Shown piece by piece: positions 32,348 through 32,820 of a stretch of DNA of 64,000 bases (position 1 is the first letter of the stretch; each line of letters begins with the position of its first letter). The position numbers and the translations under genes were made by a program. The DNA is from Lysobacterales bacterium (GTDB lineage Bacteria; Pseudomonadota; Gammaproteobacteria; Xanthomonadales; SZUA-36): NCBI GenBank assembly GCA_028289465.1, contig JANQPM010000043.1:1-64000 (forward strand). Direction: 5' to 3'. The notes beneath the pieces were generated by a model that was not told the DNA's origin, did no database searches, and was given only the letters and a program-made list of their open reading frames with translations.

Positions 32348-32820
32348 TTGTGTCTTGTCGTCGCTTCTTTCACTGCGTGAAAACCGCAACGACAAGACGG
32401 CGTTAGTTGATTGATCTTTGCTTCTGATTCGCTACGCGAACCAACCGGCAAAGATGGGAAAAAGTTGTTTTGGAGTCGCTTCTTTCACTGCGTGAAAACC
32501 GCAACGATAAGACGGCATTAGTTGATTGATCTTTGCCTCTGATTCGCTGCGCGAACCAACCAGCAAAGATGGGAAAAAGTTGTTTTGAAGTCGCTTCTTT
32601 CACTGCGTGAAAACCGCAACGACAAGACGGCGTTGGTTGATTGATCTTTGCTTCTGATTCGCCGCGCGAACCACCCGGCAAAGATGAGAAAAGATGTTTC
32701 GGTGCCGTTTTGCAGGACGGCATTTGGCGAGAAGAGTTGAGTGCGTTCCCGGTCTTTGAGTGGCGGGGCGGATGATAAGAGTTTGAATTGGTATCAACCT
32801 GGAAGTAGCAGGAGTTAATC
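32348..32820. other. Untranslated atpB-atpE spacer
   Basis: 473 bases with no supported gene, while all other atp junctions are at most about 60 bases. It is filled by the repeat array up to about 32700, then about 120 bases leading to AGGAG before atpE. No T-run terminator follows the hairpins, so transcription probably continues. Confidence 0.8.
32353..32700. repeat. Three 115-bp direct repeats with hairpins, inside the atp operon
   Basis: Near-identical units begin at 32360, 32475 and 32590 (period 115). Each unit holds two hairpins. The first is TTTCAC-TGC-GTGAAA in flanks GCTTC and ACCGC. The second is an 8-bp stem ATCTTTGC / GCAAAGAT enclosing an inner stem TTCGC / GCGAA. The first unit is additionally bracketed by a perfect 9-bp inverted repeat TCTTGTCGT (32353-32361) / ACGACAAGA (32389-32397), which the later units lack on the 5' side. 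Units differ by only a few substitutions, several of them in hairpin loops. Confidence 0.92.

Follow-up and report, generated by a model that had tools for sequence, protein, structure and literature searches.

A REP-like dispersed hairpin repeat forms a three-unit tandem array between atpB and atpE in a Lysobacterales bacterium

The window analysed here, 64,000 nucleotides of DNA from a Lysobacterales bacterium, represents contig 62 of a draft genome of 2.95 Mb, which comprises 121 contigs and is 95% complete. Within its atp operon, the genes for subunits a (atpB) and c (atpE) are separated by a spacer of 473 nt (atpB end 32347, atpE start 32821), and the remaining atp junctions are overlapping or shorter than 60 nt. 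About 345 nt of the spacer is filled by three direct repeats of exactly 115 nt (32351–32695), which are 100, 93 and 91% identical to unit 1 (TRF score 596). Both the tightness of the other junctions and the presence of three near-identical 115-bp units had been reported in an initial annotation of this DNA, and both are borne out. Differences among the three units occur at 15 positions, and the number of units is therefore unlikely to be an assembly error. The features of the junction are listed below; for the repeats, the minus strand is the one on which the mismatch loop reads GGT/GAA.

31280–32347, plus strand: atpB (subunit a), upstream neighbour
32351–32465, minus strand: unit 1, 115 bp; 110.7 bits to the family covariance model
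32352–32398, minus strand: hairpin A of unit 1; outer stem intact, GGT/GAA internal loop, inner stem TTTCAC/GTGAAA
32414–32455, minus strand: hairpin B of unit 1; outer stem ATCTTTGC/GCAAAGAT, conserved core TCTGATTCGC..GCGAACCAACC
32466–32580, minus strand: unit 2, 93% identity to unit 1; outer stem of hairpin A eroded; 100.5 bits to the family model
32467–32513, minus strand: hairpin A of unit 2
32529–32570, minus strand: hairpin B of unit 2
32581–32695, minus strand: unit 3, 91% identity to unit 1; outer stem of hairpin A eroded; 97.3 bits to the family model
32582–32628, minus strand: hairpin A of unit 3
32644–32685, minus strand: hairpin B of unit 3
32696–32820, plus strand: remainder of the spacer, non-repeated, with the atpE ribosome-binding site GGAG; structure unremarkable (z=-0.08)
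32821–33090, plus strand: atpE (subunit c), downstream neighbour; 84–97% identity in relatives

Each unit consists of two imperfect hairpins, A and B, and each hairpin has an outer and an inner stem split by a conserved internal loop. Two stem-loops per unit (TTTCAC-TGC-GTGAAA, and ATCTTTGC/GCAAAGAT around TTCGC/GCGAA) had been recognized previously and both are present; the internal loops that part the outer from the inner stems go beyond that description, as does the dispersal of the unit in the genome. Read antisense to atp, the mismatch loops are GGT/GAA (3x3) in hairpin A and GGT/GA in hairpin B. The extra outer stem ascribed to unit 1 is likewise found, with 10 predicted pairs, and is eroded in units 2 and 3. 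Unit 1 folds with -40 kcal/mol on the plus strand (z=-3.6) and -47 kcal/mol on the minus strand (z=-5.9), and the folding of units 2 and 3 alone is unremarkable on the plus strand (z=-0.3 and -1.0, respectively). Given the z-scores of unit 1 and the covariation of the stems across copies described below, the folding of the array is not due to chance. Paired positions within the array, the eroded outer stem of hairpin A excluded, vary less than the others (3/50 versus 12/65, one-sided p=0.04), which weakly indicates that they are constrained. Promoter- and terminator-like sites, intrinsic terminators included, were not found in the atpB–atpE spacer.

The spacer DNA matches 25 further places in its own genome, several of them at contig ends, and the hairpin-B core TCTGATTCGCNNCGCGAACCAACC is found there in 30 copies at ≤3 mismatches (none for the reversed control). 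A family covariance model built from 23 units gives 71 matches in the genome, with copies spread over about 55 places, and has matches in 11 of the 39 genomes of the taxonomic family, the present one included. The exact hairpin-A motif (GCTTCTT-stem-AAACCGC) is more abundant still, with 268 copies against three for the reversed-pattern control; members of the taxonomic family contain 0–18 copies and 368 other genomes of the class mostly 0–4, which equals the control level. The inner letters of the motif pair (≥4 bp) in 31 of 45 distinct sequences from family members, and none of 30 from background genomes pairs even over 3 bp. All repeat copy numbers are lower bounds, since the assembly breaks at copies; the ends of contigs C25, C68, C72, C81, C99 and C102 fall in or near them.

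The copies are intergenic. Among 42 arrays for which both neighbours are known, 32 lie between co-oriented, seven between convergent and three between divergent genes, and 11 of the 29 arrays that follow a gene end begin ≤15 nt from the stop codon, although these counts are approximate, as the genes around the arrays were called with a simple codon-usage script. Tandem duplication is usual for the repeat family: 13 other tandem arrays containing hairpin A, with periods of 66–133, are present in the fetched loci. One of these arrays, in the spacer between cpoB and queE (L291:1540-1963), consists of approximately four 102-bp units in which hairpin A has a stem of its own, TTTCACACCC. At another locus (L290:2220-2760 and 4130-4500) hairpin-A repeats lie near tRNA genes and after infA, and the stems are private to each locus. 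Three more hairpin-A motifs of mixed orientation are found in the window itself, at 47970–47992 (minus), 48012–48036 (plus) and 48102–48125 (minus); this cluster (47970–48125) represents the repeat superfamily in a mosaic form.

Comparison of the 23 units revealed that the stems covary. Altogether 92.7% of the cells are paired, compared to at most 46% when the partners were slid as a control, and 12 pairs are changed on both sides versus 6.0±1.5 in shuffled alignments (0 of 500 shuffles reach 12), with the reservation, valid for all statistics on repeat copies given here, that the copies are related to one another. Structure prediction with a covariance test, which the initial annotation had proposed as a check, has thus come out in favour of a conserved fold. 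The units at atp themselves have ATCTTTGC/GCAAAGAT in place of the GATTCCAGC/GCTGGAATC of most copies. In relatives that belong to other genera, neither stem is related in sequence to those of the present genome; GCTTCTT...AAACCGC is retained by the first hairpin, and a GGTTGG...CCAGA frame, read on the opposite strand, by the second. The stems are therefore free to change provided that they pair, and the mismatch loop is constant across genera. A sequence-blind scan for any 3x3 internal loop recovered TTC/ACC (GGT/GAA when read from the opposite strand) in 69 of the 138 distinct hairpins in the fetched loci of the present genome and in 20 of 39 hairpins in the loci of relatives; it was absent from all 14 hairpins in background loci, and no second loop recurred in the loci scanned. 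The TTC/ACC fraction is inflated because the loci were picked for holding the hairpin-A motif; the absence of other repeated loops is not affected by this choice.

The constancy of the loop also bears on the question of how pairing is kept. Replication slippage and template switching, which perfect quasi-palindromes, could produce both the compensatory changes and the tandem duplications, and arrays of many periods do exist, so that neither recognition nor selection would be needed. However, such a process should erase the mismatch loop as well, yet TTC/ACC survives in half of the hairpins of this shape, within unrelated stems and in several genera. We therefore regard template switching as a very improbable sole cause of the pairing.

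The two strands of the repeat are not equivalent. The GGT/GAA strand folds better in all 23 units (mean -50.1 versus -37.8 kcal/mol), and wobbles at variable stem positions on this strand favour G-T over A-C (25:9 in the present genome, p=0.009 with related copies; 6:2 in relatives). At the atp locus the GGT/GAA strand is antisense to the mRNA. The orientation of the repeat relative to the preceding gene is unbiased (29:24). Strand preference combined with unbiased orientation favours, though does not prove, a DNA-level or strand-independent role over one as an mRNA element. It is moderately supported that GGT/GAA is the acting strand.

We compared the atpB–atpE spacers of the 28 relatives in which both genes are on one piece, a comparison that had also been recommended with the initial annotation. 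The repeat was not found in any of the 28 spacers. In 27 of them the spacer is 36–109 nt long and mostly T-rich; such a T-rich stretch before atpE, typical of the relatives, is missing at positions 32696–32820 of the window. The junction in Escherichia coli contains a translational enhancer of atpE, a short U-rich leader; the present genome has structured repeats rather than a T-rich spacer at the same junction. The spacer of the 28th relative, which belongs to another genus, is 314 nt long and contains an unrelated element that is inserted immediately behind the atpB stop codon and has terminal inverted repeats (L131:1826-2082 in genome G049; 257 bp, inverted ends CCCGCATATTGCACCAGT/ACTGGTGCAATATGCGGG). 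This element has 22 matches in its own genome and none in the present one. Two unrelated repeat families have thus entered the atpB–atpE junction in two genera, and since the 28th relative carries an unrelated dispersed repeat there, the simplest reading is that the junction is a permissive site. At least two lineages thus accept large structured insertions at what is the best-known junction for unequal expression in this operon.

The array might nevertheless have been co-opted for expression: a stop-proximal hairpin would stall terminating ribosomes or prevent decay of the RNA, and cleavage within the spacer would separate the atpB and atpE messages, so that subunit c could be made in excess. 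Consistent with such a function, the first hairpin A, which starts 4 nt past the atpB stop codon, keeps the 10-pair stem that has been lost from units 2 and 3; variation between the units is lower at paired positions; and a different repeat sits at the same junction in another genus. By analogy, a gene in E. coli is translated less when a REP lies less than 16 nt beyond its stop codon (PMC12306157), and the present hairpin could act likewise. On the other hand, the repeat is not conserved at this junction in other genera, the family adjoins many unrelated genes and 11 of its arrays lie no more than 15 nt from a stop, the strand that folds better is the one antisense to atp, the spacer has no promoter or terminator, and other bacteria attain the same stoichiometry without an array. 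We consider co-option unlikely. The initial annotation had suggested a structured leader that sets the stoichiometry of subunit c; this idea finds no direct support, given that conservation of the repeat at atpE does not extend to other genera, that the orientation of the repeat is unbiased and that its best-folding strand is antisense. The alternative put forward alongside it, that a mobile repeat was inserted and is tolerated by the operon, is the part that stands, being supported by the dispersal of the repeat, its absence from the 28 relatives and the sister tandem arrays.

The E. coli REP/BIME elements with their TnpA-REP (RAYT) transposase, group 2, are among the known elements most similar to the repeat. 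These are also dispersed intergenic imperfect hairpins at high copy with a conserved mismatch in the stem, and two hairpin types alternate in composite tandem arrays, often just past stop codons. E. coli REPs are imperfect hairpins in which the stem bulge is required for TnpA-REP (PMC8266576). The present repeat differs from them in having no GTAG tag, longer two-stem hairpins, a 3x3 GGT/GAA loop and head-to-tail arrays, and in that no Y1 transposase was found in the genome. An unpaired GTAG at the 5' foot of the hairpin was not found in the repeat alignments, where the feet read GG[AT]GTC and CACC/CTCC. GTAG- and CGTC-tagged REPs are the two large known groups, the CGTC-tagged ones having no known transposase (PMC3733652, Di Nocera et al. 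2013). The latter are similar to the present repeat in being REP-like and lacking a known dedicated transposase, and hairpin A is often preceded, on the GGT/GAA strand, by ATGCCGTC; however, the GTC of ATGCCGTC is paired in the outer stem. The other hallmarks of CGTC REPs, namely an unpaired CGTC tag, an 8–9 bp stem starting with AT, a 4–5 nt loop and a CCA tail, were not found in the repeat.

It is accordingly improbable that the element is a GTAG- or CGTC-tagged REP/BIME of the known RAYT-mobilized kind. Its small imperfect palindromes with a conserved stem mismatch, its two hairpin types alternating in tandem, its intergenic position and its high copy number all fit that description, as does the need of E. 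coli REPs for a stem bulge (PMC8266576), and a missing dedicated transposase would be no obstacle for a CGTC REP (PMC3733652). Nevertheless, no unpaired GTAG or CGTC tag lies beside the stems, stems and loops are unlike those of the published 8–9 bp CGTC families, the genome has no Y1 transposase, and the sampled RAYT loci of relatives added no hairpin A. Because the repeat is dispersed, with bulged hairpins and composite arrays, but failed the tests for the defining tag and RAYT, we file it as a REP-like variant outside the tagged, RAYT-linked groups.

Like MITEs, ERIC, NEMIS and RPE, the repeat is short, structured and close to genes and may alter the mRNA decay of its neighbours; it appears to differ in that no single terminal inverted repeat pair or target duplication was identified and in its modular hairpins with covarying stems. 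The atp array is without clear outer boundaries, and some related elements start with GGAG and finish with CTCC. A known Rfam RNA family was rejected, as the locus and eight related loci gave sub-threshold chance matches only. Integron attC sites were rejected because the R/L box letters do not fit, and an autonomous element, consisting of a gene between inverted hairpin-A copies, because inspection of two such loci showed infA, tRNA genes and cpoB–queE, and no transposase. Distant blastn searches of a plasmid collection with the repeat gave no match. Searches of GTDB contigs with the hairpin-B core gave three matches, of which only the one at L067 has the two-hairpin form and the other two look like chance. 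No related paper, judged by titles, emerged from a literature search on the motif letters.

Taken together, these data make it probable that the array is a REP-like dispersed repeat inserted just downstream of atpB in the present lineage and then tandemly duplicated to three units; most likely it is a tolerated repeat insertion and not a dedicated control switch. A copy of the dispersed repeat would have entered the spacer right behind the atpB stop codon and would subsequently have duplicated in tandem. The mismatch loop is most naturally read as the feature recognized by a protein that is specific for structure, acts on folded DNA in single-stranded form (or on RNA) and spreads the element in the manner of TnpA-REP with E. 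coli REPs; we infer both the mobility of the repeat and the recognition of its loop by a protein. The repeat is presumably dispensable for atpE expression. Its complement would also fold in the atp mRNA, and any effect on atpB termination, mRNA decay or processing would be a by-product. With the first hairpin starting 4 nt behind the atpB stop, expression may be affected incidentally, for example through ribosome stalling at this stop or mRNA processing.

A search for Y1 transposases (PF01797) gave no match in the 95%-complete draft, no mobilizing gene was found, and Y1 genes across the taxonomic family do not follow the distribution of the repeat. A counterpoint to the mobile reading is that the stems of many loci are private and differ in a compensatory way, suggesting that the fold has long been under selection at each locus, as opposed to mere passive residence. 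A broader scenario, in which a superfamily of mobile hairpins with a GGT/GAA loop and covarying stems is spread by a protein other than Y1/RAYT and, in addition, a hairpin behind atpB is favourable, hence the independent landings in two genera, appears rather doubtful as a whole. In most cases, REP-like repeats are associated with GTAG tags and RAYT transposases, and the present family differs in this respect: a fixed mismatch loop, covarying stems and hundreds of hairpins with no detectable RAYT point to another recognition system, for the discovery of which the GGT/GAA loop offers a concrete bait.

Two further kinds of repeats were observed in the same genome. GTAG-type REP-like hairpins (GTAGGAGCGCCTTTAGGCGCGAATG) are present in the flanks of loci L003, L006, L010, L023 and L025, although no Y1 transposase was found in this genome. 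The window also contains a short tandem repeat at 60845–60887, with an 18-bp unit in 2.4 copies.
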